A DNA stretch of 64,000 nt from Rhodospirillales bacterium. GTDB lineage: Bacteria > Pseudomonadota > Alphaproteobacteria > Acetobacterales > Acetobacteraceae. Shown piece after piece: positions 12,316 through 32,065 of this stretch. Both the position numbers and the translations under genes were made by a program. Every line of letters starts with the position of its first letter. The stretch's first letter is position 1. The DNA lies in the NCBI GenBank assembly GCA_025352565.1, contig JANXTF010000070.1, forward strand, positions 1 through 64,000. The letters run 5' to 3'. Under the pieces are notes generated by a model. The model saw only the letters and a list, made by a program, of their open reading frames with translations. It was not told where the DNA came from and made no database searches.

Positions 12316-12354
12316 TATGGCCATATGCCTTTATGACACGAGCATATGGCCATA
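12316..12354. promoter_or_regulatory. Palindromic operator overlapping the antitoxin start
   Basis: TATGGCCATATGC at 12316-12328 and GCATATGGCCATA at 12342-12354 form a perfect 13-bp inverted repeat around a 13-nt spacer that contains the antitoxin ATG at 12333. Each arm holds its own palindrome TATGGCCATA, so two dyad sites 29 bp apart are present. This is the layout expected for cooperative autorepression by an antitoxin or toxin-antitoxin complex. Function is inferred from position. Confidence 0.7.
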
Positions 12355-12773
12355 GAGGCTTCAGCGAGGTCCAACAGCCCTTTCACCTTCCCCTCTCCTG
12401 GGCATCGTCCTCGGCGTCCACCATCGAAGCTGTCCGCGAGGGGCTGCCGGTTGCCGTCATCGACGATCTGCTTGCCTGTGGTCGTCTCTCGGCGGTCGAA
12501 CTCGATCGGCTTGTGCTCCCGCGCAAAACCCTGGCGCATCGGCGCACCATGGGGCGGCTCTCGCCCGAGCAGTCGGATCGCCTGCTGCGCATCCTGCGCA
12601 TCCTCGACGAGGCCGACGGCGTTTTCGGGGCTCCGGACAAGGCCGCGCGATGGCTGCGGCGCCCCACCGCCCCGCTCGGCGACAGCGCGCCGCTCGATCT
12701 GCTCGACACCGATATCGGCACCCGCGAAGTCGAACGCCTGCTCGCCCGCATTGCCCACGGCATCGCCGCCTGA
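12333..12773 (+). CDS. Xre/MbcA/ParS antitoxin of a RES-Xre toxin-antitoxin pair
   Basis: A 146-aa antitoxin. The N-terminal half is a degenerate Xre-like helix-turn-helix (AVREGLPVAVIDDLLA through LPRKTLAHRRT). The C-terminal half is the ParS/DUF2384 toxin-binding domain, with LSPEQSDRLLRILRILDEAD, GAPDKAARWLRRP and a closing LLDTDIGTREVERLL. It neutralises the RES toxin encoded just downstream. The only in-frame start is the ATG in the centre of the operator palindrome, without a Shine-Dalgarno, so leaderless or weak initiation is possible. Autoregulation is likely. Confidence 0.88.
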   Translation: MTRAYGHRGFSEVQQPFHLPLSWASSSASTIEAVREGLPVAVIDDLLACGRLSAVELDRLVLPRKTLAHRRTMGRLSPEQSDRLLRILRILDEADGVFGAPDKAARWLRRPTAPLGDSAPLDLLDTDIGTREVERLLARIAHGIAA

Positions 12774-13201
12774 TCCAGGGGTGGCGCCTGTGCCGGCGGC
12801 CTCACGCCGATTTGTCGGGGCAGGGGGCTCGCCTCGTCGGCGGGCGCTGGAACAGCCCGGGCCGGCCGGTGGTGTATTTCGCGGAGCATCCTGCTTTGGC
12901 CGTGCTGGAGGTGCGCGTCCATCTCGATCTTCCGCTGGACCTGATCCCGGACGATTACGTATTGGTGGGCGTGGACCTCCCCGACGAGCCGCCTGAGGAA
13001 CTCCCTCCGCAGCCCGACCCGCGCGCCGCCGGCGATGCCTGGCTCCTACGCGGGCGCTCCGCCTTGCTCAGCGTGCCCTCGGTCCTCGTGCCGCCCGCCC
13101 GCAACCTTCTGTTGAACCCGTTGCATCCCCGTGCCGCGGAGGCCCGGATCGCTTCCATCGCCGCCTTCCTGTTCGACCCGCGCCTCTGGCTCCCGGCCTG
13201 A
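12770..13201 (+). CDS. RES-domain toxin (NAD+-depleting family)
   Basis: A protein of about 143 aa with the RES fold, known in this family to degrade NAD+ by an ADP-ribosyltransferase-like mechanism. Visible signatures are GARLVGGRWNSPGRPVVYF, AEHPALAVLEVRVHL and late PSVLVPPARNLLLNP; the Arg, Tyr and Glu expected in the active site are present. Homology begins at WRLCRR, yet no ATG, GTG or TTG lies in frame near there. The best start is CTG at 12770, overlapping the antitoxin stop as CTGA; the first standard start is an ATG far inside the antitoxin gene. Its end overlaps no gene, but the Pho-box-like site follows at once. Confidence 0.82.
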   Translation: MIQGWRLCRRPHADLSGQGARLVGGRWNSPGRPVVYFAEHPALAVLEVRVHLDLPLDLIPDDYVLVGVDLPDEPPEELPPQPDPRAAGDAWLLRGRSALLSVPSVLVPPARNLLLNPLHPRAAEARIASIAAFLFDPRLWLPA

Positions 13202-18605: not shown

Positions 18606-19724
18606 TCAGCCGAATTTTTCGCCGTAGATCTCCACCTCGTCGAGGTGGAGCATCGTGGGCGTGCGTGAGGTGATCCGCACGAGCCGGGCCAGGACCATGC
18701 CGGTAAACCGCAGCACCAGCTCCGGCGTGGTCCCCGCGGTCCAGTCATGATTGTCGAGCGTGCCGGCTTCCGCCCAATCGCCACCGTCGGTGCTGACCTC
18801 GATCGCAAGGTTGGCAGCCCGGTTCATGATCGCTTTCTGGTCGCCCCGGTTGACGATGCGCATCTCGCGCAGGACATGAACGTCCAGCAAGTCGACCATC
18901 CACCACGGCGCGTCCTCGAACGTGGTGTGGAACCCGAAATGACCGGAGATGAAACCGTCATTGGCGCGTCCCTCCGCATGTGCCAGATGACTGCCCGTTG
19001 AACCCATGTAGCGCGAGCTTTGCCGGGTCGGCTTGCGGAGCGCCACATTGGGCAGGGCCGGGGGAGGGAGGCTGTGCCGCGCTCGTGTCGCGAACAGATG
19101 CGCGGTCCGCTCCGCCCAGAACGCCGCCAGCGTGTGATCCTCCACGGCGTTGAACGCGGGATCGGATGTTCTCGCGAATTGCGCGACGTAAGCGCCCTCG
19201 GTGCCCGCATCGACGGTTGCGCCGGCGGTCCCGGCACGAACGAGCATTTTGGTCGCCCTGTCCGGAAGCTCCGCCCGCCGCGTGCGCGCAAACAAAATGA
19301 AGTCGTCGCTGGCCGCCGCGTGGTGGTTGTCGCCGAACACCCGCACACCCAGCGACACCGCCGCGCACCCCTCCGCGACGGTCGTCAGGAACGCCGTCAC
19401 CGAGTCGCTGCCGGGGAATACCAGGAACTCGTTCACGTCGAGGAAGCAGAACCAGCCGGTCGCCTGTTTGCGGTTGTCCAGGAAATGCTGCCGGGCCGAT
19501 GCCTGATCGTCCGCGGCGCCCCAGTGCCGGAACGCCACGCACGGCGTCGCCTGCATCAGATAGGGGGTCAGTGCCTTCAGCAACGTCATGGGCGTGTCGT
19601 CGCCGCCATAGATGGTGAAATGCCCGACGCCGATGGCGCGGTGATATTCGATCCATTCGACGATCGCGCGCTCGTCTCCCCGCGCGAGCGCCGCCAGGGA
19701 AAAACCCGGTTTGTTTTCCGCCAT
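18606..19724 (-). CDS. Glycosyltransferase (GT92/GT2_4-like) fused to a discoidin domain
   Basis: A 372-aa two-domain protein. Residues about 10-230 match the bacterial 'family 2-4/GT92' transferases: RAIVEWIEYHRAIGVGHFTI, YGGDDT and WFCFLDVNEFLVF. The usual D-x-D-E of the last motif is D-V-N-E here, so metal binding may be altered. Residues about 235-372 form an F5/8 type C (discoidin) carbohydrate-binding module: NVALRKPTRQSSRY at its start and LDEVEIYG at its end. The start at 19724 has no signal peptide. It is monocistronic, converging with phoB across a 119-bp gap in which nothing further was recognised. The acceptor sugar is unknown. Confidence 0.8.
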   Translation of the reverse strand: MAENKPGFSLAALARGDERAIVEWIEYHRAIGVGHFTIYGGDDTPMTLLKALTPYLMQATPCVAFRHWGAADDQASARQHFLDNRKQATGWFCFLDVNEFLVFPGSDSVTAFLTTVAEGCAAVSLGVRVFGDNHHAAASDDFILFARTRRAELPDRATKMLVRAGTAGATVDAGTEGAYVAQFARTSDPAFNAVEDHTLAAFWAERTAHLFATRARHSLPPPALPNVALRKPTRQSSRYMGSTGSHLAHAEGRANDGFISGHFGFHTTFEDAPWWMVDLLDVHVLREMRIVNRGDQKAIMNRAANLAIEVSTDGGDWAEAGTLDNHDWTAGTTPELVLRFTGMVLARLVRITSRTPTMLHLDEVEIYGEKFG

Positions 19725-19823: not shown

Positions 19824-21257
19824 ATGTATCCCGACGTCAACCTGTTCATCGACGGGGCCTGGACGCCCAGCGCCTCCGGCAAGACCCTGGAAGTGTTGAA
19901 CCCCGCCACCGGCGAGCCCCTGGGCCGCCTGGCCCATGCCGGCATCGCCGACCTGGACCGTGCCTTGGAAGCCGCCCAGAAGGGCTTCGATATCTGGCGC
20001 AAGGTCTCGGCCAACGAGCGCTCGAAAATCATGCGCAAGGCCGCCGGCCTGATGCGCGAGCGCACCGACGCCATCGCCCGGCTCATGACGATGGAGCAGG
20101 GCAAACCTTTGGCCGAAGCCAAGGGAGAACTCGGCGTGGCCGCCGACGTGATCGAGTGGTGCGCCGAGGAAAGCAGGCGGACCTATGGCCGGGTCATCCC
20201 GGCCCGCGCCGAGGGCGTGTACCAGCTGGTGATCAAGGAGCCGGTCGGTCCCGTGGCCTGCTTTACGCCCTGGAACTTCCCGGTCAATCAGGCGGTTCGC
20301 AAGCTCTCGGCCGGACTCGCCGCCGGCTGCTCGATCATCCTGAAAGGCCCGGAGGAGACCCCGGCCTCCTGCGCCGAACTGATCCGCGCCTATGTCGATG
20401 CGGGCGTGCCGGCGGGCGTGCTGGGCCTCGTGTTCGGCGTGCCCTCCGAAATCAGCGAGTATCTGATCCCGAGCCCGATCATCCGCAAGATTTCGTTCAC
20501 CGGGTCGACCGCGGTGGGCAAGCACCTCGCGTCCCTTGCCGGGCAGCACATGAAGCGCGTGACCATGGAGCTCGGTGGCCACGCCCCGGCGATCGTGTTC
20601 GACGACGCCGATGTGGTCTATGCCACCAAAATTCTGGCCGCCAACAAGTTCCGCAACGCCGGCCAGGTCTGCGTGGCACCGACGCGCTTCCTGATCCAGG
20701 AAAAGGTCTACGATCAGTTCGTCGAAACCTTCGTGGCGGCGGCCAGGAAGCTGAAGGTCGGCGACGGCCTGGAGGCCGGCACCACCATGGGACCGCTCGC
20801 CAACGCGCGCCGCATCACCGCCATGGAGGGCTTCATCACCGATGCGGTGAAACACGGCGGCAAGGTCGAGACCGGCGGCAACCGGATCGGCAACAAGGGC
20901 TATTTCTTCGAGCCCACGGTGCTGACCGGCGTGTCGAAGGAGGCGCGCGTGATGAACGAGGAACCGTTCGGGCCGCTCGCGATCATCTCCCCGTTCAGCA
21001 CGTTCGATGAGGTGGTGACGGAGGCCAACCGCCTGCCGTTCGGCCTCGCCGCCTACGCCTACACGGCGTCCGCCAAGACGGCCAACGCCATCGCGGCGCA
21101 GGTGGAAACCGGCATGATGTCGATTAACCATCACGGTCTGGCGTTGCCGGAAGTGCCGTTCGGCGGCGTGAAGGATTCCGGATACGGGTCCGAGGGCGGG
21201 CTGGAAGCGATCGAAGCCTATCTCAACACGAAGTTCGTGAGCCAGGCCGGATTATAG
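19824..21257 (+). CDS. NAD(P)-dependent aldehyde dehydrogenase, succinate-semialdehyde dehydrogenase-like
   Basis: A 477-aa ALDH-superfamily enzyme oxidising an aldehyde to an acid. General base E249 (MELGGHAP) and nucleophile C283 (NAGQVCVAP) are present, as are FTPWNFPV and FTGSTAVG of the cofactor fold. Overall sequence resembles GabD-type succinate-semialdehyde dehydrogenases, but no GABA transaminase is adjacent. An AAGGTGAGG motif precedes the ATG. Its last codons overlap the end of nagA by 6 nt on the opposite strand. Confidence 0.9.
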
Positions 21258-22349
21258 CCTCTCGCCGCCAATCCAGACCGCTTCCACCCTTAACGTCCGA
21301 TCCAAACATACAAAATCCGCACGGCAGCCGGGGGCCACGCGCCCCCGGTCACGCGCGCCGAGTGCGGCCGCCGGTGTCGCCGTCGCCATCCGCAAGGCAT
21401 CCGCAGCCACGATGCCCATCATCGAAACCGCGTTCCGCACCGCGCTTGCGATGGTAAGATGCGCTCCCGCCAGCGTTCCCGCATCGTCGGTCAGCTTCCC
21501 GTCGCACAGGCGAATCGTCATGGCGTTCAGCATGAACGCCGTGACGTCCGATCCCGCCGTCGCCATGGCGTCCGACACCAGGAACATCCGGTCCGGCCCC
21601 AGGGCGGCGTAAGCGGCAGCGATGCTGACGGGATCGACATGCAGGCCGTCCGCGATGATGCCGGCATAGGCGGCGCGATCGGCCAGGGCCGCCCCAACGG
21701 CGCCGGGCGCACGGGAACCGAATTGCGACATGGCGTTGAACAGATGCGTGAAGCCGACGATACCCGCACGAAGCCCGGCAAGCGTCTCCGCCGCCGTGGC
21801 ATCGGTATGGCCGGCAAACACACGCACGCCGCGTGACGCAAGCGCCCCGATATGGACGGCGCCCACGCATTCCGGCGCCAGCGTCACGAGCGCGGCCGAT
21901 CCCAGCATTTCCACATCCGCGTCGGTCATGGTCGTGACATTCGCGGCCGGATGAATGCCACGTCGCGCGAGCGATATGAAAGGCCCCTCGATATGCACGC
22001 CCAGGGTGCCCCGCCCGGCCGCCACAGCCGCCGCGATTTGCGCGCGCGTGCCGCTGATGAGCGTGGGCAGGATCGTTGTCGTGCCGCAGCGCGCATGGGC
22101 CGCGGCCATGATACGGATCGCGTCCGCGTCGCACGAGTCGTTGAACATCACGCCGCCGCCGCCGTTTACCTGAAGATCGATAAAGCCCGGCGCAAGCATG
22201 CGCCCATCGTCCAGGGTCTCGACGGCCACCCCCTCTGGCGCGGCACCGGCGTCCAGCAGCGCCTCGATCCGTCCATTCTCGATCAGCACCGTCGCCGGGC
22301 CGCGCATCGCGATGCCGTCGAACAGCATCGACGTGCGGAGCGCCCTCAT
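21252..22349 (-). CDS. nagA: N-acetylglucosamine-6-phosphate deacetylase
   Basis: A 365-aa amidohydrolase-fold enzyme converting GlcNAc-6-P to GlcN-6-P and acetate. Signatures are [13 protein letters not shown], the metal-binding [28 protein letters not shown] and the catalytic Asp in SDAMATAGS. It is the second gene of murQ-nagA, overlapping murQ as ATGA, so the pair takes MurNAc-6-P from wall recycling through GlcNAc-6-P to GlcN-6-P. No nagB isomerase is in the window. Confidence 0.95.
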
Positions 22350-23233
22350 TCCGCGAGTGCCGCCCGCAGGCGGCCGCCGTGCCGCGCCAGCAGGGCATCC
22401 GCCTCCGCCACGCCTTTGCCGCCGACCACCAGCACCGCCGGTTTCACCCGCCCGCCGGTTTGCGCCAGTGCCGCGCGCGCGGCGGTGGGGTCGCAGCCGG
22501 TCAAATGCGTCAGCATCCGCACCGCCCGCAGGCGCAGCTTGTCGTTGCGCGCCAGCATATCGACCATGGTGCCCTGGTAGACGCGCCCCAGTCGCACCAT
22601 CACCAAGGTGGAGAACAGGTTCAGCACCGCCTTCTGCGCGGTGCCGGCCTTCATGCGCGTGGAGCCCGCGATGGCCTCGGCCCCGGTCTCCACCAGGATT
22701 TTGTGCGCAGCCGCCGCGAGCACCGCGCCGCCGGGGGAGTTTGCGATGCCGATGGTCAACGCGCCGCGCCGCGCCGATTCCTCAAGACATGCGGCGGTGA
22801 AGGGCGTGCCGCCGCTCGCGGCTATTCCGAGCACCACGTCATCCGGCCCGACCGCGTGCTCGCCAATGCGGCGAATGGCGGCGGGGCGATCATCCTCCGC
22901 GTTCTCGACCGCGCGGGTGAAGGCGATGTCGCCGCCCGCCATCAGCAGCACCAGCCTGTTCTCCGGCCAGTCGAAGGTCGGCGGCAACTCCGCGCCGTCC
23001 TGCACGCCGATGCGCCCGGACGTGCCGGCGCCGCAATAGACCAGCCTGCCGCCGCGCGCGAGCAGCGGGACCGACGCGGCGGCGGCGGCGGCCAGCGCCG
23101 GCAGGGCGGGGCGGACGGCCGCGATGGCGGCGAGCTGGCTTTCCCAGAGCGCATCGAGGATGGTTTCGGGCGCCCAGTCGTCCAGGTCTCGGTAGCGGTC
23201 GCTGATCGCCTCGGTCTCCGGCAGGGCCGCCAT
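22346..23233 (-). CDS. murQ: N-acetylmuramic acid 6-phosphate etherase
   Basis: A 295-aa SIS-domain enzyme that cleaves the D-lactyl ether of MurNAc-6-P to give GlcNAc-6-P. The phosphosugar site GAGTSGRIGVQDGAELPPTF, VLGIAASGGTPF and the family motif GSTRMKAGTAQKAVLN are all intact, and the small C-terminal helical domain follows. It is the first gene of the murQ-nagA operon. The MurNAc kinase (AnmK or MurK) that supplies its substrate was not seen nearby. Confidence 0.96.
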   Translation of the reverse strand: MAALPETEAISDRYRDLDDWAPETILDALWESQLAAIAAVRPALPALAAAAAASVPLLARGGRLVYCGAGTSGRIGVQDGAELPPTFDWPENRLVLLMAGGDIAFTRAVENAEDDRPAAIRRIGEHAVGPDDVVLGIAASGGTPFTAACLEESARRGALTIGIANSPGGAVLAAAAHKILVETGAEAIAGSTRMKAGTAQKAVLNLFSTLVMVRLGRVYQGTMVDMLARNDKLRLRAVRMLTHLTGCDPTAARAALAQTGGRVKPAVLVVGGKGVAEADALLARHGGRLRAALAE

Positions 23234-23701: not shown

Positions 23702-23745
23702 GGCTGGCCCGCGTTTGCGTTGACTTGCGCGGGTCAGCCTTGTTT
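23702..23745 (+). terminator. Hairpin terminator after the HU gene
   Basis: GGCTGGCCCGCG at 23702-23713 pairs with CGCGGGTCAGCC at 23728-23739 (12 pairs, one G-T), followed by TTGTTT. It begins 20 nt after the HU stop and fits an intrinsic terminator. Confidence 0.8.
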
Positions 23746-23784
23746 CATCGGCCCCAACGCCAATCCGAGTATCGGGGACCGACC

Positions 23785-25449
23785 ATGAACCTGCGCGCGG
23801 CGCTTGCTGCATCCACCATCCTTGTCCTCTGCGGCGCGGCATCTGGCGCCCTCGCGAAGGACGACCTCGTGATCGGGGTGGCGCAATTTCCCTCCAGCCT
23901 GAACCCGAACATCGATTCCGAGGTGGTGAAGGCCTATGTGCTGGATTTCGCCATCCGGCCGATCACCGCCTTCGACAAGGACTGGAAGAACTCCTGCCTG
24001 CTCTGCACGGAGTTGCCGACGCTGGAGAACGGGCTCGCCAAGCTGGAGGATCAGCCGGACGGCACGAAGGGCATGGCGGTCACGCTGAAGCTGAAGCCGG
24101 ACCTGAAATGGGGCGACGGAGTCCCGGTCACGACCAAGGATCTGATGTTCACCTGGAAGCTGGGCCTCGATCCAGCCTCGGGCTTCAGCAACAACCATCC
24201 GTGGAACCGTGCGACGAAAATCGACGTGGTGGATGACCATACCGCCGTGTTGCACCTGTCGCGCGTCAGCGTCAGCTACAACCAATGGGATCAGTTGCTG
24301 CCCGAGCATATCGAGGCGCCGGTTGTGGCAAAGCTCGCGAGCCCGGCCGAATACATCAAGAACACCGTCTTCACGCGCACGCCCACCACGGCCGGGCTAT
24401 GGAACGGGCCGTACATGATAACGGCCTATCAATCCGGCGCGCAGGTGGTGTTCGAGCCGAACCCCCACTGGGCGGGAACCAAGCCCGGCTTCAAGCACAT
24501 CGTCATCAAGACCATCGAGAACACTTCGGCGTTACAGGCCAACCTGTTGTCGGGCGACGTGGACATGGTCGCGGGCGAGGGGATCGGGCTGACCATCGAC
24601 CTGGCCTTGGCGCTCCGCAAGCAGCAACCCGACAAATTCACCTACGAGTTCAAGCCGAGCCTGACCTACGAGCACATCGACGTACAGGTCGGCAATCCGA
24701 TCCTGGCCGATGTGCGGGTTCGCAAGGCTTTGCTGTACGCAGCGGACCGGCAGACCATGGTGAACCGGCTGTTCGAGGGGTTGCAGCCGGTGGCGGCAAC
24801 CTGGGTCAATCCGCTTGACCCCAATTACACCAAGGACACGGCGGTTTATCCGTTCGATGCGGCGAAGGCGAAGGGGCTGCTGGCCGAGGCCGGGTGGAAG
24901 CCGGGAGCCGACGGCATCTGCCGCAACGCGAAGGACGAGCGACTCTCGATCGAGCTGACCACGACGGCGGGCAACCGGCTGCGTGAGTTGCAGGAGCAGG
25001 TACTGCAAAGCCAGTGGAAGGCGTCGTGCATCGAGGCGGTCATCAGAAACGAGCCGGCGCGCACGCTGTTCGGCGAGACCCTCAAGAAGCGCGTCTATAC
25101 CGGGCTTGCCATGTATGGCTGGTCCAGCGGGGTCGGTGAAAGCCCACGCCGCACGCTCGGCAGCGGCGACATCCCGACGGCGGCGAACAACTATGGCGGC
25201 TCCAACTACATCGCCTTCAAGGACGCGACGATGGATGCGGATATCGCCAAGGTGGAATCCGAACTGGATGCCGCCAAGCAGAAGGCGGACTGGGCGGAGA
25301 TGCAGAAGATCTACGCCGATCAGGTGCCGGTGTTGCCGCTGTTCTTCCGCGCCGAGCCGCATATCGTGCCGAAATGGCTGAAGGGCTACACGCCGACGGG
25401 CCATGGCGATTTCAGTCCGTTGTGGGCGGAGAACTGGAAGTCCGGCTAG
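23785..25449 (+). CDS. Peptide-type ABC transporter substrate-binding protein 1 (family 5)
   Basis: A 554-aa periplasmic binding protein of extracellular solute-binding family 5, which takes up oligopeptides, nickel, opines or similar. A Sec signal ends ALA before KDDLVIGVAQFPSSLNPNID. Family features include KPDLKWGDGVPVTTKDLMFT and ANLLSGDVDM. It is about half identical along its length to the next gene, a tandem duplicate. GGGGACC lies before the ATG. It opens the operon with two binding proteins and D, F, B, C components. Confidence 0.9.
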   Translation: MNLRAALAASTILVLCGAASGALAKDDLVIGVAQFPSSLNPNIDSEVVKAYVLDFAIRPITAFDKDWKNSCLLCTELPTLENGLAKLEDQPDGTKGMAVTLKLKPDLKWGDGVPVTTKDLMFTWKLGLDPASGFSNNHPWNRATKIDVVDDHTAVLHLSRVSVSYNQWDQLLPEHIEAPVVAKLASPAEYIKNTVFTRTPTTAGLWNGPYMITAYQSGAQVVFEPNPHWAGTKPGFKHIVIKTIENTSALQANLLSGDVDMVAGEGIGLTIDLALALRKQQPDKFTYEFKPSLTYEHIDVQVGNPILADVRVRKALLYAADRQTMVNRLFEGLQPVAATWVNPLDPNYTKDTAVYPFDAAKAKGLLAEAGWKPGADGICRNAKDERLSIELTTTAGNRLRELQEQVLQSQWKASCIEAVIRNEPARTLFGETLKKRVYTGLAMYGWSSGVGESPRRTLGSGDIPTAANNYGGSNYIAFKDATMDADIAKVESELDAAKQKADWAEMQKIYADQVPVLPLFFRAEPHIVPKWLKGYTPTGHGDFSPLWAENWKSG

Positions 25450-25523
25450 TGGGGACGTTCCTCGCCCCCCACGGCCTCGCCGGAGGACGCGACCGAAAGA
25501 CGCGTCACGACACGCGCGTGACG

Positions 25524-27182
25524 ATGCTGTCGCGGCCTCTCCCCGTCGCGGCCCTCCTCGGCACCCTCCTTGCAACCCCCGCCCACGCCAAGGACGACCT
25601 CGTCATCGGCGTGTCCTCGTTCCCGTCGATGATGCACCCCTACATCAACCCCGAGGTGGTCAAACAATACACGCTCGGCTTCGCGCTGCGCCCGGTGACC
25701 GCACTGAACGCGGCCTGGACCAAGGAGTGCATTCTCTGCGCGGAGCTGCCGACGCTTGCGAACGGGTTGGCCAAGATCGAACGACACGCTGACGGCACCG
25801 AGGGCCTCGCCGTCACCGTGAAGATGAAGCCGGATCAGAAATGGGGCGATGGCGTGCCGGTCACGACCGCCGACCTCGCGTTCACGGCGAAGGTCGCGCA
25901 CGATCCGCTGTCGGGCTTCACCAACAACCAGACATGGCTCGGCGTGGAGAGCGTCGATGTGATCGACGCGACCACGGCGGTGATGCACTTCGCCACCGTC
26001 AACGTGCTGTTCGACCGCATTCCGAACCTGCTGCCGGAACACATCGAGCGCGCCGTGTACGAAAAGGCCGGCAACGCGGCGGACTACATCAAGGCCACCA
26101 CGTACAATCGCGCGCCGACCACGCCCGGGCTGTATAACGGCCCCTACATGGTGACGGCCTATCAGTCCGGCGCGCAGATCGTGCTGGAGCCGAATCCGAA
26201 CTGGTCCGGCACCAAGCCCGGCTTCCGGCGCATCGTGGTGCGGACCATCGAGAACACCGCCTCGTTGCAGGCGAATCTGCTGTCAGGCGACGTGGACATG
26301 ACGCCGGGCGAGGGCATCGGCCTCACGCTCGACCAGGTGCTGACCATGAGGAAGCAGCAGCCGGATCGCTTCGACTACGTGTTCCGCGACAGCACGGCCT
26401 ATCTGCATCTCGACACGCAGCTCAACAGTCCATTGCTGGCCGATGTGCGCGTGCGGCGCGCGCTGCTGATGGCGCTGGACCGCAAGACCATGTCGGACAA
26501 GTTGGTCGATGGGCTCTGGACCCAGGCCGATGCGTGGATCGCGCCGCAAGACCCCGTGTACGCGAAGGGTCTGCCGCATTACGGGTATGATCCGGCGGGC
26601 GCGCGGGCGTTGTTCAAGCAGGCGGGATGGAACCCCGGCGATGACGGCATCCTGCGCGACGCGAAGGGCGAGCGTTTCGTCCTCGAGTTGCGCGGCACCA
26701 CGGGCATTCGGTTGAACGAATTGTTCCAGGCGGTGGCGCAGCAGCAGCTGAAGGCGGTGGGCGTGGAGGTGACGATCAAGAACGAGCAGCCGCGCGCCTT
26801 CTTCGGCGAGACGCTGAAGCACCGGACATTCACGGGCCTCGCGTATTACTCGTGGCTGTTCCAGCCGAGCTATCCGGCGCGCCAGACTCTGGGTCTCGAC
26901 CAGATCCCGACGGCGGCGAACAATTGGGGCGGGTCCAACTACATGGACTGGAAGAACCCCACGGTCGAGGCCGCGCTGAAGGTGACGGAGACGGAGCTCG
27001 ATCCGGCGAAGGCGCAGGTGGCATGGACCACGATGCAGCAAGCCTATGCCGAGGAATTGCCCGTGCTGCCGTTGTTCTTCCGGCCGGAAAGCCACGTGAT
27101 CCCGAAATGGCTGAAGGGCTATGTGCCGACCGGGCACACGAACTATGGCACGCTGCACGGCGAGGACTGGCATAGCGAATGA
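25524..27182 (+). CDS. Peptide-type ABC transporter substrate-binding protein 2 (family 5)
   Basis: A 552-aa periplasmic binding protein with a Sec signal cleaved after AHA, then KDDLVIGVSSFPSMMHPYIN. It shares long identical blocks with the preceding gene (LPEHIE, NGPYMVTAYQSGAQ, FFRPESHVIPKWLKGY), showing recent tandem duplication with divergence in the ligand cleft regions. A GTG two codons before the ATG at 25524 is an alternative start. The ATP-binding gene follows 16 nt after the stop. Confidence 0.9.
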   Translation: MLSRPLPVAALLGTLLATPAHAKDDLVIGVSSFPSMMHPYINPEVVKQYTLGFALRPVTALNAAWTKECILCAELPTLANGLAKIERHADGTEGLAVTVKMKPDQKWGDGVPVTTADLAFTAKVAHDPLSGFTNNQTWLGVESVDVIDATTAVMHFATVNVLFDRIPNLLPEHIERAVYEKAGNAADYIKATTYNRAPTTPGLYNGPYMVTAYQSGAQIVLEPNPNWSGTKPGFRRIVVRTIENTASLQANLLSGDVDMTPGEGIGLTLDQVLTMRKQQPDRFDYVFRDSTAYLHLDTQLNSPLLADVRVRRALLMALDRKTMSDKLVDGLWTQADAWIAPQDPVYAKGLPHYGYDPAGARALFKQAGWNPGDDGILRDAKGERFVLELRGTTGIRLNELFQAVAQQQLKAVGVEVTIKNEQPRAFFGETLKHRTFTGLAYYSWLFQPSYPARQTLGLDQIPTAANNWGGSNYMDWKNPTVEAALKVTETELDPAKAQVAWTTMQQAYAEELPVLPLFFRPESHVIPKWLKGYVPTGHTNYGTLHGEDWHSE

Positions 27183-27198
27183 CAATTCTGCTTCGCCA

Positions 27199-28134
27199 GT
27201 GATCGAGGTCGATCGCCTCCGCGTGGCCTTCGGGCCGAACGAAGTCGTCGCCGGCATATCCTACGCCATTCCCGCCGGGCGCACGCTCGGCGTGGTGGGC
27301 GAAAGCGGCTGCGGCAAGTCGATGACCGCGCTGGCGTTGATGGGGCTGGTGCCGGGGCCGGGCGCGGTGTCGGGGTCGGTGCGGTTCGAGGGGCGCGAGA
27401 TGGTCGGCCAGTCGGCGGCCGACTGGCGAGCGGTGCGGGGCCAGCGGATCGCCATGGTGTTCCAGGAACCGATGAGCGCCCTCAATCCGGTGATGACGGT
27501 GGGACGGCAGATCGCCGAGGTGCTGGTCCTGCACGGGGAAGCGGGCTGGCGCATCGCGGAGGAACGCGCGGTCGGCCTGCTGGAGCAGGTCGGCATCAAC
27601 TCGCCCGCCCAGCGCGCGCGGGCCTATCCGCACCAGCTTTCCGGGGGAATGCGGCAGCGGGCGATGATCGCGATGGCGCTGGCCTGCGAGCCCGCCTTGC
27701 TGATCGCCGACGAGCCCACCACGGCACTCGACGTGACCATCCAGGCGCAAATCCTCGACCTGATGGTGGAATTGCAGGAGCGGATCGGCATGGCGATCCA
27801 GTTCATCAGCCACAACCTCGCCGTCATCAGCGAAGTCGCGCACGAGATTATCGTGATGTATGCGGGCCGCGTGGTGGAGCGGGCGCCGGCGGACGCGCTG
27901 TTCGGCAACCCGCTGCATCCCTACACGCTCGGTTTGATCGCGACCTTGCCGGACCCCGACCACCGGGTCGGCCGCCTGCCGGTGATCCCCGGCGGGGTGC
28001 CCGATTTCGATTCCCGCGCGCAAGGCTGCCGCTTCGCCGACCGCTGTGCGCGGGGCGATGCGAGCTGCCGACAGGCGGAGCCGCCGTTGCGGGCGCTGGC
28101 GCCGGGCCATGAAGTGGCGTGCTTCAAGGCATGA
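27199..28134 (+). CDS. dppD: Peptide-type ABC transporter ATP-binding protein (DppD-like)
   Basis: A 311-aa importer ATPase: Walker A GESGCGKSM, signature LSGGMRQR, Walker B LLIADEPTTALD and switch His in SHNLAV, then the oligopeptide C-terminal domain with the Cys-rich segment CRFADRCARGDASC. The GTG at 27199 (VIEVDRL) is the start that matches the family boundary; an ATG at 27145 would overlap the previous gene by 38 nt. No good Shine-Dalgarno is visible. The next gene overlaps as ATGA. Confidence 0.88.
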   Translation: MIEVDRLRVAFGPNEVVAGISYAIPAGRTLGVVGESGCGKSMTALALMGLVPGPGAVSGSVRFEGREMVGQSAADWRAVRGQRIAMVFQEPMSALNPVMTVGRQIAEVLVLHGEAGWRIAEERAVGLLEQVGINSPAQRARAYPHQLSGGMRQRAMIAMALACEPALLIADEPTTALDVTIQAQILDLMVELQERIGMAIQFISHNLAVISEVAHEIIVMYAGRVVERAPADALFGNPLHPYTLGLIATLPDPDHRVGRLPVIPGGVPDFDSRAQGCRFADRCARGDASCRQAEPPLRALAPGHEVACFKA

Positions 28135-29102
28135 GCGGCGCGGAAATCTTCGCGCTCGACGGCGTCTCCGTCCATTTCGACCTTGGCGGCGGCGGCCTGT
28201 TCGGGCGCGCGCGGAAAACCCTGCGCGCGGTGGAGCATGTGTCTCTCACCATCGCCGATGGCGAGACGCTGGCGCTGGTGGGCGAGAGCGGCAGCGGCAA
28301 ATCGACGCTCGGCAACGTGGTCGGCGGCTTGCAGGTGCCGACCTCGGGCACGTTGCGCTATCGGGGCGGGCCGATGGACGAAGCCGCGTGGAAGCGCGCG
28401 CGGCGCGACATCCAGATGGTGTTCCAGGACCCGTTCAGCGCGCTCGACCCGCGTATGCCGGTCAGCGCCATCATCGCCGAGCCGCTGCTGATCCAGGGCA
28501 CCGCGACCGCCGCCGAACGGCGCGCGCGGGCGGCGGAACTGGTGCGCCAGGTCGGGTTGCCGCTCGATGCGCTGAACCGCTACCCGCATGAATTCTCCGG
28601 CGGCCAGCGCCAGCGTATCGCCATCGCGCGCGCCCTGGCACCCGATCCGGCGCTGATCGTGGCCGACGAGCCGCTCTCGGCGCTCGACGTGTCGATCCAG
28701 AGCCAGATACTGAACCTGATGCAGGAATTGCGGGAGCGCCGGAAGCTGGCCTACCTGTTCATCAGCCACGACCTCGCCGTGGTGAACCATCTGGTGGACC
28801 GTGTCGCCGTGCTCTATCTCGGCCGCGTGGTCGAGTTGGCGCCCCGCGCGGAGTTGTTCGCGACCCCGTCGCACCCCTACACCCAGGCGTTGCTTGCCGC
28901 CGTGCCCCGCATCGGCCGCAGGCGGGCGCGGGGCGCGTCATCGATCAAGGGCGAGATGCCGAGCCCGCTGGCGCCGCCGCCCGGCTGCGTGTTCCATCCG
29001 CGCTGCCCCAAAGCGCAGGCGGTCTGCCGCACGAAGGCGCCCGTGCTGGAACCGGCGCCGGGCCGCGCGGCGCAATCCGCCGCGTGCCATTTCAAGGAGT
29101 GA
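28131..29102 (+). CDS. dppF: Peptide-type ABC transporter ATP-binding protein (DppF-like)
   Basis: A 323-aa ATPase, partner of the preceding one. Walker A GESGSGKST, signature FSGGQRQR, Walker B LIVADEPLSALDVS and SHDLAVV are present, with the C-terminal CVFHPRCPKAQAVC motif of the oligopeptide subfamily. The ATG at 28131 is inside the dppD stop (ATGA). AAGGAG at its end serves the following permease gene. Confidence 0.93.
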   Translation: MSGAEIFALDGVSVHFDLGGGGLFGRARKTLRAVEHVSLTIADGETLALVGESGSGKSTLGNVVGGLQVPTSGTLRYRGGPMDEAAWKRARRDIQMVFQDPFSALDPRMPVSAIIAEPLLIQGTATAAERRARAAELVRQVGLPLDALNRYPHEFSGGQRQRIAIARALAPDPALIVADEPLSALDVSIQSQILNLMQELRERRKLAYLFISHDLAVVNHLVDRVAVLYLGRVVELAPRAELFATPSHPYTQALLAAVPRIGRRRARGASSIKGEMPSPLAPPPGCVFHPRCPKAQAVCRTKAPVLEPAPGRAAQSAACHFKE

Positions 29103-29109
29103 GGCATTC

Positions 29110-30063
29110 ATGACCCGCTTCATCCTGCGCCGCCTCATGCAGGCTCTGATCGTGCTGCTGGTGATGTCGTTCGTCATCTACGGGCTGATCGGGCTCATGC
29201 CTGGCGATCCGCTCGACATCATGATCGCGAGCAATCCCGGCGCCACGCCCGAAGTGGTGGCGCATCTGCGGGCGATCTACGGCCTCGATCAGCCGCTGAT
29301 GCTGCGCTACTGGCATTGGCTGATCTCGGCGCTGATGGGTGATTTCGGCTTTTCGCGCATTCATTCGCAACCCACGCTCGAAGTGCTGGGCCCGGCGCTG
29401 CTGCAAACCTGCAAGTTGCTGCTGGCGAGCTTTGTCGTGAGCGTGGTCCTGTCCTTCGTGCTCGGCATCGTCGCGGCGCTGCGGCCGGGCGGGATCGTCG
29501 ACAGCTTCATCAGCCTGTTCGCCTTCGCCGGCATCTCGGTGCCGGTGTTCTGGCTGGCGCTGATGATGATATTGGTGTTCGCGGTGAACCTGCACTGGTT
29601 CCCGGCCAGTGGCATGGCCAATATCGGCGATGGCGGCTTCATGGATCAGGCGCGCCACCTCATCATGCCCGTCACCACGCTCGCACTCGCCAACACCGGC
29701 GGCTTCATCCGCTACGTGCGCGCGAGCATGATCGAGACGCTGCGGATGGACCATGTGCGGACCGCGCGCGCCAAGGGGGCGGGGGAGGGGCGGGTCGTGC
29801 TGATCCATGCGTTCCGCAACGCGCTCATTCCGGTGGTGACCGTGATCGCGCTCAATTTCGGCACGCTGTTCTCCGGTGCGCTGCTGACCGAGACGATGTT
29901 CGCGCAGCCGGGGATGGGGAAGATGATCTATGATTCCATTCTCGGAAACGACTTCAATCTCGCGCTGACCGGACTGCTGTTCGCCACCGTGGTCACGCTG
30001 CTGAGCAATCTGCTGGCGGATCTGGCCTATGGCTGGCTCGATCCGCGGATCGCGGTGCGATGA
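29110..30063 (+). CDS. dppB: Peptide-type ABC transporter permease (DppB-like)
   Basis: A 317-aa inner-membrane permease with the DppB N-terminal helix (FILRRLMQALIVLLVMSFVI), MPGDPLD, and an EAA loop (VRTARAKGAGEGRVVLIHAF). AAGGAG lies 9 nt before the ATG at 29110. The stop overlaps the dppC start as ATGA. Confidence 0.94.
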   Translation: MTRFILRRLMQALIVLLVMSFVIYGLIGLMPGDPLDIMIASNPGATPEVVAHLRAIYGLDQPLMLRYWHWLISALMGDFGFSRIHSQPTLEVLGPALLQTCKLLLASFVVSVVLSFVLGIVAALRPGGIVDSFISLFAFAGISVPVFWLALMMILVFAVNLHWFPASGMANIGDGGFMDQARHLIMPVTTLALANTGGFIRYVRASMIETLRMDHVRTARAKGAGEGRVVLIHAFRNALIPVVTVIALNFGTLFSGALLTETMFAQPGMGKMIYDSILGNDFNLALTGLLFATVVTLLSNLLADLAYGWLDPRIAVR

Positions 30064-30986
30064 GCGGCATTGCGACGCTTCCCGACCGCGCGATTTCGGT
30101 CGGCCGCCTGCGATGGCGGCGGTTCCGCACCCATCGGGCGGCGGTGGCGAGCCTGATCGTGCTGGCGCTGCTGGTGCTGTTCTGCCTCGCGGCGTGGCCG
30201 CTCAAGACCTATCTGGGCATCGACCCCGACGCCACCGACCTGCTCGCGCGCTTCGATCCGCCATCCGCCGCGCATTGGCTCGGCACCGACGACGCGGGCC
30301 GCGACGAGTTGCTGCGGCTGATGGTGGGCGGCCAGATTTCGCTGCTGGTGGGCCTGCTCGCCACGGCCATCGGCGGCATTTTCGGGCTGCTGATCGGCGT
30401 GACGTCCGGCTATTTCGGCGGCCGCATCGACGCGGCATTGATGCGTTTCACCGACGGCATGATCATCCTGCCGCTGCTGCCGCTGCTGATCGTGCTGGGG
30501 GCGCTCGACCTCACCAAGCTCGGCTTCACCAAGGAGTTCGCGACCTCGGGCGCGGCCGGGTTCTGGCGCATCGTGGTCATCATCTCGATCGTGGACTGGA
30601 CTTCCATCGCGCGCCTGGTGCGGGCGGCCGCGCTGGCGATCAAGGAGCGCGACTTCGTGCGCGCCGCGCGCGCCAGCGGGGCCGGGCCGTTCTATGTGAT
30701 GCGCGCGCATGTGCTGCCGAACGTGGCGACGCCGATCATCGTGGCGTTCACGCTGACGGTGGGCCGCGTGATCCTGCTGGAAAGCGTGCTGAGCTTCCTC
30801 GGCTTCGGCATCGTGCCGCCGACGCCAAGCTGGGGCAATATGCTGAACAACGCCCAGGAATTGGTGAACACGGCACCCGCGCTCGCGGTGTATCCCGGAT
30901 TGCTGATCTTCATCACCGTGATCGCGGTGAACTTCGTGGGGGACGGGTTGCAGCACGCCTTCGACCCGCGCTCGGAGCGTTCTTGA
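30060..30986 (+). CDS. dppC: Peptide-type ABC transporter permease (DppC-like)
   Basis: A 308-aa inner-membrane permease with a cytoplasmic N-tail, HWLGTDDAGRDELLRLMVGG typical of DppC, several membrane helices and an EAA loop (VRAARASGAGPFYVMRAHVL). It completes the transporter. Its stop TGA overlaps a TTG that starts the next gene, a glycosyltransferase. Confidence 0.94.
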   Translation: MSGIATLPDRAISVGRLRWRRFRTHRAAVASLIVLALLVLFCLAAWPLKTYLGIDPDATDLLARFDPPSAAHWLGTDDAGRDELLRLMVGGQISLLVGLLATAIGGIFGLLIGVTSGYFGGRIDAALMRFTDGMIILPLLPLLIVLGALDLTKLGFTKEFATSGAAGFWRIVVIISIVDWTSIARLVRAAALAIKERDFVRAARASGAGPFYVMRAHVLPNVATPIIVAFTLTVGRVILLESVLSFLGFGIVPPTPSWGNMLNNAQELVNTAPALAVYPGLLIFITVIAVNFVGDGLQHAFDPRSERS

Positions 30987-32065
30987 CGCCGTATTTGACC
31001 GTCGTCGTGCCCACCTACCGCGAACGCGACAACGTCTCTCCTCTCGTGACGCGGCTGGATGCGGCGCTCGCGGGGATCGCGTGGGAAGTCGTGTTCGTGG
31101 ACGACGACAGCCCCGACGGCACGTATGCCGAGGCGCGTCGTATCGCGCGGGACGATCCCCGTGTGCGGTGCATCCGCCGGATCGGCCGACGCGGCCTGTC
31201 TTCGGCCGCGATCGAGGGCGTGCTGTCGTCCTCGGCGGAGTATGTCGCGGTGATGGACGGCGATTTGCAGCATGACGAGACCCGGCTGCCCGAGATGCTG
31301 CGCGCGGTGCAGGCCGGCAGCGACATCGCGGTCGCCAGCCGCCATGCGGAGGGCGGCGACGCGGCCGGGCTGTCCGGCGTGTGGCGGCATCGCATCTCGC
31401 AGAGCGGCATCCGGGCCGCCAACGCCATGCTGGCGGTGCGGCTGAGCGACCCGATGAGCGGCTTCTTCCTGCTGCGGCGCGACCTGTTCGAGCGTGTGGC
31501 CCCACGGTTGAGCGGACAGGGGTTCAAGATCCTGCTCGATCTGCTGCTGTCATCGAGGCTGCCGCTGCATGTTGCCGAGGTGCCGATGATGTTCGCCGCG
31601 CGCGAGATGGGCGAGAGCAAGCTCGACGTGCTGGTGATGGCGCAGTTCGCCGGGATGCTGCTGGACAAGACGACGCATGGGCTGCTGCCGCTGCGCTTCG
31701 TGTCGTTCGCGCTGGTGGGCGGGGTGGGCGTGCTGGCGCATCTATCGGTGTTGACCGCGTTGCGCGGCACCGGATGGGGCTTCGCCGCCACGCAGGTGAT
31801 CGCCACGATCGCCGCGATGGGGCTGAATTTCTGGCTCAACAACGCCATCACCTACCGCTCCGACCGCCTGCGCGGCCCCGCTTTGTGGCGCGGGCTGCTG
31901 CTGTTCATGGCGGTGTGCAGCGTGGGCGCGATCGCCAACGTGGGGATCGCGCGGCTGTTGTACCAGGCACATTCCGGCTGGACGCCGGCGGGGGCCATGG
32001 GGGCCGCGATCGGCGTAGTGTGGAATTACGCGGTGTCGGCCACCTTGGTGTGGCGGCGGCGTTAG
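30983..32065 (+). CDS. DPM1-like glycosyltransferase fused to a GtrA membrane domain
   Basis: A 360-aa fusion. Residues about 5-225 form a GT2 polyprenol-phosphate mannosyl/glucosyltransferase: VVVPTYRERDNV, D40-D42 in VDDDSPDGT and MDGDLQHD at 91-98. Residues about 235-358 are a four-helix GtrA domain (LRFVSFALVGGVGVLAHL to WNYAVSATLVW). It probably loads a sugar onto a lipid carrier and helps flip it. The TTG start at 30983 overlaps the dppC stop as TTGA and begins exactly at the domain boundary. The link to a peptide transporter operon is unexplained. The end overlaps the convergent TauD-like gene by 4 nt. Confidence 0.88.
   Translation: MTPYLTVVVPTYRERDNVSPLVTRLDAALAGIAWEVVFVDDDSPDGTYAEARRIARDDPRVRCIRRIGRRGLSSAAIEGVLSSSAEYVAVMDGDLQHDETRLPEMLRAVQAGSDIAVASRHAEGGDAAGLSGVWRHRISQSGIRAANAMLAVRLSDPMSGFFLLRRDLFERVAPRLSGQGFKILLDLLLSSRLPLHVAEVPMMFAAREMGESKLDVLVMAQFAGMLLDKTTHGLLPLRFVSFALVGGVGVLAHLSVLTALRGTGWGFAATQVIATIAAMGLNFWLNNAITYRSDRLRGPALWRGLLLFMAVCSVGAIANVGIARLLYQAHSGWTPAGAMGAAIGVVWNYAVSATLVWRRR

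Follow-up and report, generated by a model that had tools for sequence, protein, structure and literature searches.

The question raised by this locus is whether a protein that domain libraries would call a glycosyltransferase (GT) is still one. Within the window, the whole stretch of 64,000 nucleotides that was analysed, a single gene (hereafter the query; Table 1) encodes a GT92/GT2_4-like domain followed by an F5/8 type C (discoidin) module. An earlier note on this DNA had recognized these two domains, had seen no signal peptide, and had read the D-x-D-E motif of the enzyme as D-V-N-E, proposing that the protein might be an unusual enzyme or lectin-like.

Domain architecture and localization

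The presence of both domain types in one protein was confirmed by Pfam, with scores of 45.5 bits for Glyco_tranf_2_4 (PF13704; cut-off 27.5, residues 17-112), 27.7 bits for Glyco_transf_92 (PF01697; cut-off 23), and 41.2 and 36.5 bits for F5_F8_type_C_2 and F5_F8_type_C, both above their cut-offs. No NCBIfam model matched the 372-aa protein at E <= 0.01. Additionally, a family profile built without the query gave 146.2 bits for the GT half (residues 4-165 on profile columns 8-169) and 127.0 bits for the lectin half. Neither a signal peptide nor a membrane segment was visible in the Kyte-Doolittle hydropathy of the 372-aa protein, in which 19-residue stretches reached at most 0.59 for starts in the first 25 residues and 1.56 anywhere (residue 109). 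Since the first strand of the GT domain begins at residue 8 of the predicted structure and the N-terminal hydropathy is low, the earlier reading on the signal peptide stands.

Table 1. Positions of the query gene and its features in the window.
Feature	Coordinates	Strand	Details or basis
Whole gene	18606..19724	-	ATG 19724, stop 18606; 372 aa; GT92/GT2_4-like and F-type-lectin-like domains
N-terminal GT part still present, residues 5-165	19230..19712	-	Profile match; A2 profile places 19230-19712
Altered DxD-E motif, D96-V97-N98-E99	19428..19439	-	A1 alignment
Place of missing GT blocks, residues 165-195	19140..19232	-	A1; profile columns 170-277 unmatched
Gln182, where the family has a near-invariant His, a proposed C-terminal metal ligand	19179..19181	-	A1 and wider row set
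F-type-lectin-like domain, residues 222-372	18609..19061	-	VIA-align to 3cqo; phmmer E 1.7e-14
H266-R302 stretch (H266, R293, D295, R302), fucose-contact set of F-type lectins	18819..18929	-	Motif from the available part of PMC5712786

Relatives of the query and occurrence of the fusion

The joining of a GT to an F5/8 type C module, which the earlier note took as odd, turned out to be common among the relatives. In a survey of 397 genomes of the same family, with at most five candidates scored per genome, at least 155 genomes matched one or both halves at E <= 1e-5. The wider set, consisting of the loci from the family searches and 60 more regions, gave 102 related frames after the removal of duplicates, and 55 of these had both parts, 20 had the GT without the lectin, 19 had the lectin only, and 8 were partial or other, so that the GT-discoidin fusion was ruled out as an anomaly. 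A lectin-like tail behind non-GT sequence was observed in 19 frames, among them L008, L012, L067, L077, L079, L081, L082, and L084-L094.

For comparison of residues, two alignments (A1 and A2) were made of 58 from 60 stretches chosen for the length and score of their profile matches (start at column 12 or before, end at column 285 or beyond, E < 1e-90). L067:830-1870 and L060:435-1808 were left out of A1, and L083, L084, and L095 were excluded as duplicates or the window's own sequence. The 58 include five degenerate rows of the genus g40 and one row from another bacterial family, L032, a GT-only relative from a Methylorubrum MAG. All 58 rows of A2 matched both GT models and 51 matched the F5/8 models, a share that overstates the frequency of the fusion because A2 was picked for long, high-scoring matches. 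In a class sample of 289 genomes, two matched the full-length profile at E <= 1e-40, namely the query genome and a second one from the same family; at this threshold, the full-length relatives thus seem to be concentrated in the family.

The same-family fusions (e.g., L020) share both modules with the query in the same order, at an identity of no more than 36% in A1. They differ from it in that the second D of DxD and the His discussed below are present in 58/58 rows, in that most have the GT blocks missing from the query, and in size (approximately 450 aligned residues versus 372 aa). The query may also be a chimera in which a lectin tail was added to a GT-only relative, an idea prompted by the GT rows nearest by path (L005, L003, and L016), which lack the lectin; in the GT tree, the length of the query branch prevents its placement, and the query belongs to none of the starred groups.

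No polysaccharide cluster was seen beside the relatives in a small picked sample of 20 neighbour genes from six loci searched with Pfam (L111, L112, L113, L114, L116, and L117; the seventh neighbourhood fetched, L115, lay outside the run). Five of these genes had no match and the rest were mostly housekeeping genes, with one other glycosyltransferase (L116) and one GlcNAc 2-epimerase (L114). The titles and abstract beginnings surveyed in the literature named no fusion of a GT with an F-type lectin. According to the available part of PMC5712786, most prokaryotic F-type lectin domains are linked to other domains, including glycoenzymes, and an earlier survey cited there may already record the fusion.

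Changes at the putative metal site

The motif indeed reads D96-V97-N98-E99, and its D-to-N change is exceptional. The column of N98 held D in 58/58 relatives in A1 and in 78 of all 82 covering profile rows, the others being I, G, N, and V (one each). These four rows are three frames of the genus g40 and one contig-end fragment; the only other N belongs to a partial, degenerate second frame in L055, and the I at the second DxD position to L060:435-1808, the most degenerate row. N is therefore not common among the relatives, which the earlier note had left to be checked. A contig-end fragment, L004:1456-2064, which has an identical match at L033:2998-3606, carries another altered motif, DVGE in place of DxDE. 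In addition, the solved galactan synthase GalS1 has YFDVDEYI at the matching motif, with D where the query has N98.

A second change concerns Q182, the column of which held H in 58/58 relatives in A1 and, in the wider set, in 71 of 72 rows (R in one), on the MAFFT alignment; the profile HMM leaves that segment unaligned (gaps). We propose from its position and from the available part of PMC7185993 that this near-invariant His is the 'C-His' of GT-A enzymes. Accordingly, of the features of GT92/GT2_4 enzymes, the query lacks the intact DxD (D96-V-N98) and, in the MAFFT alignment, the metal-ligand C-terminal His (Q182), and no A1 relative (0/58) combines N98 with Q182. D96, E99, D196, and W203 are unchanged in the query; D196, in a column with D in 56 and N in 2 of the 58 A1 rows, is a candidate for the xED base.

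PMC7185993, in the text available, lists DxD, xED, G-loop, and C-His as the core features of the GT-A fold. It also describes GT14 and prokaryotic GT6 enzymes that lack DxD, stay active, and no longer need metal, as well as GT-A families that remain active without C-His. Because such enzymes are active, motif loss is no proof of inactivity. The same text reports that COSMC, a relative of GT31, lost both DxD and xED, is inactive, and acts as a chaperone. Against this partial background, catalytic loss in the query is likely, not certain.

Missing blocks and uneven conservation of the two halves

The query lacks approximately 85 columns that half or more of the relatives fill (A1, n = 58), in three gaps of 30, 21, and 34 such columns. 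The missing blocks comprise about 51 residues around residues 167-171 and about 34 after residue 191, and they contain conserved positions of the relatives (H in 53/58, R in 53/58, R in 53/58, G in 47/58, and W in 49/58). Other GT-conserved residues are changed as well, namely W20G, Y41T, N45G, and N130G (profile columns). A single clean deletion of the C-terminal GT part was rejected, since A1 (MAFFT) shows a remnant aligned with the segment of the invariant His; the query therefore has separate missing blocks and a His-to-Gln change. The term 'unusual enzyme' used previously thus understated the case, with the near-invariant His replaced by Gln and blocks of the GT domain gone; the earlier note held neither the change at residue 182 nor the loss of about 85 GT residues, nor the commonness of the fusion.

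With conservation of a column defined as identity in 85% or more of 52 full-length relatives, the query kept 30/48 conserved columns of the GT part (relatives' median, 96%) and 16/21 of the lectin part (median, 91%). Its end branch was the longest of 59 in the GT tree (3.24; median, 0.29) and the third longest of 52 in the lectin tree (1.95; median, 0.38). These sequence comparisons indicate that divergence affects both halves and is stronger in the GT half.

Predicted structure

The AlphaFold model of the query had a mean pLDDT of 87.5 and a pTM of 0.72, and that of the intact relative L020 a mean pLDDT of 92.3. On the predicted model, the GT half has a GT-A-type fold; GalS1 (8d3t_D) was its best solved match among the matches listed (Z 18.2, rmsd 3.0, 206 aligned, 13% identity), and L020 matched the same structure with Z 18.6 and rmsd 3.5 over 220 aligned residues. 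GalS1 is the galactan synthase of Populus (PDB 8d3t/8d3z), which we take to belong to CAZy family GT92. It resembles the query GT half in fold, compared over the GT part only, and differs from it as a plant enzyme with the DVDE-type motif given above and as one for which a manganese-bound structure exists (title of 8d3z).

The tail (model residues 222-372) has an F-type jellyroll fold on the predicted model, matching the F-type lectin 3cqo with Z 19.6 and rmsd 2.0 over 139 aligned residues (VIA-align), which gives strong support to the discoidin fold assigned earlier. The structure 1k12, presumably eel agglutinin, matched with Z 17.3. Among the 50 matches listed, F-type lectins outranked the other discoidin-type modules, the lowest of them being 1k12 (17.3 versus 16.3 for the next). 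A shared fold alone, here a modelled one, would say nothing on function.

Lectin-like tail and its binding site

All four residues of the fucose-contact set, H266, R293, D295, and R302, are present in the query tail, as in 34/51 lectin-bearing relatives in A1. The fold and these H-R-D-R residues are shared with the F-type lectins FBP32 (3cqo), the lectin domain of lectinolysin (3lei), the pneumococcal fucose-binding module (2j1t), and eel agglutinin (1k12), and the tail is 27-32% identical to F-type lectins over the aligned part. 'Lectin-like' can consequently be narrowed: in sequence, predicted fold, and sugar-contact residues, the tail appears nearest to F-type (fucose) lectins. In contrast to these lectins, the query domain forms the tail of a protein that resembles a GT, and its site departs from theirs in two respects. 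The available part of PMC5712786 prints the fucose motif as H-X24-R-X-D-X4-(R/K), the fucose contacts of eel agglutinin as His52, Arg79, and Arg86, and the cation motif as h2-D-G-x. Between H266 and R293 there are 26 residues versus the printed 24, the same as between His52 and Arg79 in the eel agglutinin numbering; between D295 and R302 there are 6 versus the printed 4, making the D-to-R loop two residues longer. The cation (calcium) motif is absent, AIDGN of 3cqo standing opposite HAEGR of the query in the phmmer alignment. The query tail has also lost the conserved G414, G418, and D336-A337 pair (profile columns), and, given these losses together with the absent calcium motif, the lectin site may therefore be altered too.

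Coding constraint and origin of the gene

The GC content by codon position (0.653, 0.492, and 0.831) is like that of the neighbour genes and native in both halves. The frame is open over 372 codons, the length changes preserve the frame, and an apparent ribosome-binding site (GGGAG) lies ahead of ATG 19724. In a simulation of neutral drift from the query gene (400 replicates, simple mutation model), the frame stayed open in 59, 13, and 4 of 400 replicates at 80, 60, and 40% identity, respectively. The GC3-GC2 difference of the query (0.339) exceeded that of every replicate at 60% (maximum, 0.317) and 40% (maximum, 0.228); the maximum at 80% was 0.344. The open frame and the codon composition point to coding constraint over a long time, and they say nothing on whether the gene has a function at present. 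Very long wrong-strand frames were also observed in the window, e.g., an 842-aa frame running upstream of the gene through the aldehyde dehydrogenase gene, and are probably due to the high GC content.

The gene is single-copy in its genome (protein search), where it is the sole PF13704 match. Its contig spans 140,793 bases, and the gene lies well away from the contig ends, between normal flanks. The comparison covered one other genome of the same genus, G010, in which phoB adjoins the aldehyde dehydrogenase gene and the query gene is absent; between alignable flanks (81-85% identity), the phoB-dehydrogenase stretch measures 229 bases there versus 1,269 here, and searches of that gap gave no convincing gene remnant (lowest E value, 3.1 by tblastn and 0.019 by blastn). 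In G002, the two genes are adjacent (approximately 175 bases) with no query gene between them, and in G006 the 3.9 kb between them have no match to the query gene. The remaining four stretches showed no phoB in the vicinity of the dehydrogenase gene. From the sequences of these few genomes, gain in this lineage would be the simplest reading. Searches of the family genomes found no close ortholog against which selection on the gene after the damage could be measured.

Degenerate relatives in the genus g40

Six frames of the genus g40 keep 50-69% of the GT-conserved columns and 19-21/22 in the lectin part. Pairwise comparison of five of these relatives (L042, L050, L055, L059, and L060) gave dN well below dS, with several dS values saturated; for L060 versus L059, the GT part had a dN of 0.105 and a dS of 0.781. 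They resemble the query in having a degenerate GT half and a kept lectin. Unlike the query, they have changed the first D to N or E, have lost conserved R residues without any large deletion, keep the His at column 237, and form a separate clade in the GT tree. In L060, L055, and L059, a second degenerate frame adjoins the first. The substitution pattern suggests that selection can maintain degenerate GT-lectin proteins. In g40 this would not be for fucose binding, and because none of the five g40 rows of A1 retains the fucose His, these relatives lend no support to a kept fucose-binding role.

Other genes in the window

NagA (TIGR00221 above cut-off) is encoded beside N-acetylmuramic acid 6-phosphate etherase (NF003915 above cut-off) in a region (21252-23233, minus strand; 23725-30986, plus strand) that also holds two SBP_bac_5 proteins and an oligopeptide-type ABC transporter. 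By its gene content, this region appears to serve the recycling of cell-wall sugars and peptides. GT2 and GtrA/DPMS domains occur in a frame (30029-32065, plus strand) that overlaps an OppC-like permease at 30060-30986; the true start of this frame is probably further downstream, since the GT2 match begins at residue 324. In addition, a RES-domain toxin of the RES/Xre type II toxin-antitoxin kind was found at 12650-13201 on the plus strand (NF049844 above cut-off); as for its antitoxin, the overlapping ORF 12346-12996 had no NCBIfam match.

Interpretation

We favour, with slightly better than even confidence, the reading that the query, probably a cytosolic protein that binds sugar, is a pseudo-glycosyltransferase bearing an F-type-lectin-like tail. 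Its GT-A-like domain would descend from a GT92/GT2_4-like enzyme in a family often fused to such a tail, and the N-terminal, nucleotide-binding-type half is predicted to fold still. Because of N98, Q182, and the loss of the H and R-R-G blocks, the domain would no longer hold a divalent metal and a nucleotide-sugar in the usual way. The soluble cytosolic protein would most likely work by its tail, with a fucose-like or related sugar as the intracellular ligand. Of the parts of this reading, the loss of catalysis is highly probable, the chance that the tail still binds sugar appears even, and whether the cell uses the protein is similarly balanced.

COSMC (C1GALT1C1), the inactive GT31 chaperone of T-synthase, is alike in having lost its catalytic motifs and, as far as the available part of PMC7185993 goes, keeps a non-enzymatic role. 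It differs in serving an active relative, and a COSMC-like chaperone for an active paralog is disfavoured here, since the query genome has no second match to the protein or to PF13704.

Several lesions in one protein, the long branches of both halves, and the absence of the gene from the same place in G010 and G002 and of any second copy would also fit a decaying gene, which was acquired, was recently inactivated, and is open only for lack of time, with no present function. We consider this unlikely, though it carries appreciable weight, as the open frame, the frame-keeping length changes, the native codon-position composition in both halves, the apparent ribosome-binding site, and the better-kept lectin residues argue against it; the constraint seen covers most of the divergence, and a very recent loss is compatible with it. 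An active, metal-independent glycosyltransferase compensating for the lost DxD and His is distinctly improbable. Such an enzyme would have precedents in GT14 and prokaryotic GT6 (the available part of PMC7185993), and D96, E99, and D196 are kept in a domain predicted to fold. However, the missing blocks hold the conserved H and R-R-G positions, many other GT-conserved residues are changed (W20G through N130G), and the pair of N98 and Q182 has no parallel in A1. That the gene is a sequence artefact, or a spurious frame arising from GC-rich DNA, as the long antisense frames common in the window might suggest, is hardly credible in view of the profile scores of both halves, the confident fold, and the position of the gene deep within its contig between normal flanks.

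A wider and rather doubtful possibility is that the intracellular GT92-like enzymes with lectin tails of this family became pseudoenzymes more than once, here and separately in g40, with the dead GT as a scaffold or a sugar-nucleotide-free sensor and, here, the tail kept as an intracellular lectin.

These findings correct an annotation. Sequence libraries assign the protein to the glycosyltransferases, but two otherwise near-invariant residues of its likely metal site have been replaced and the domain is incomplete. They also bring to notice a set of fusions of GTs with F-type lectins. If the tail works, the query would be a natural case of a glycosyltransferase turned intracellular lectin, with many intact relatives for comparison.
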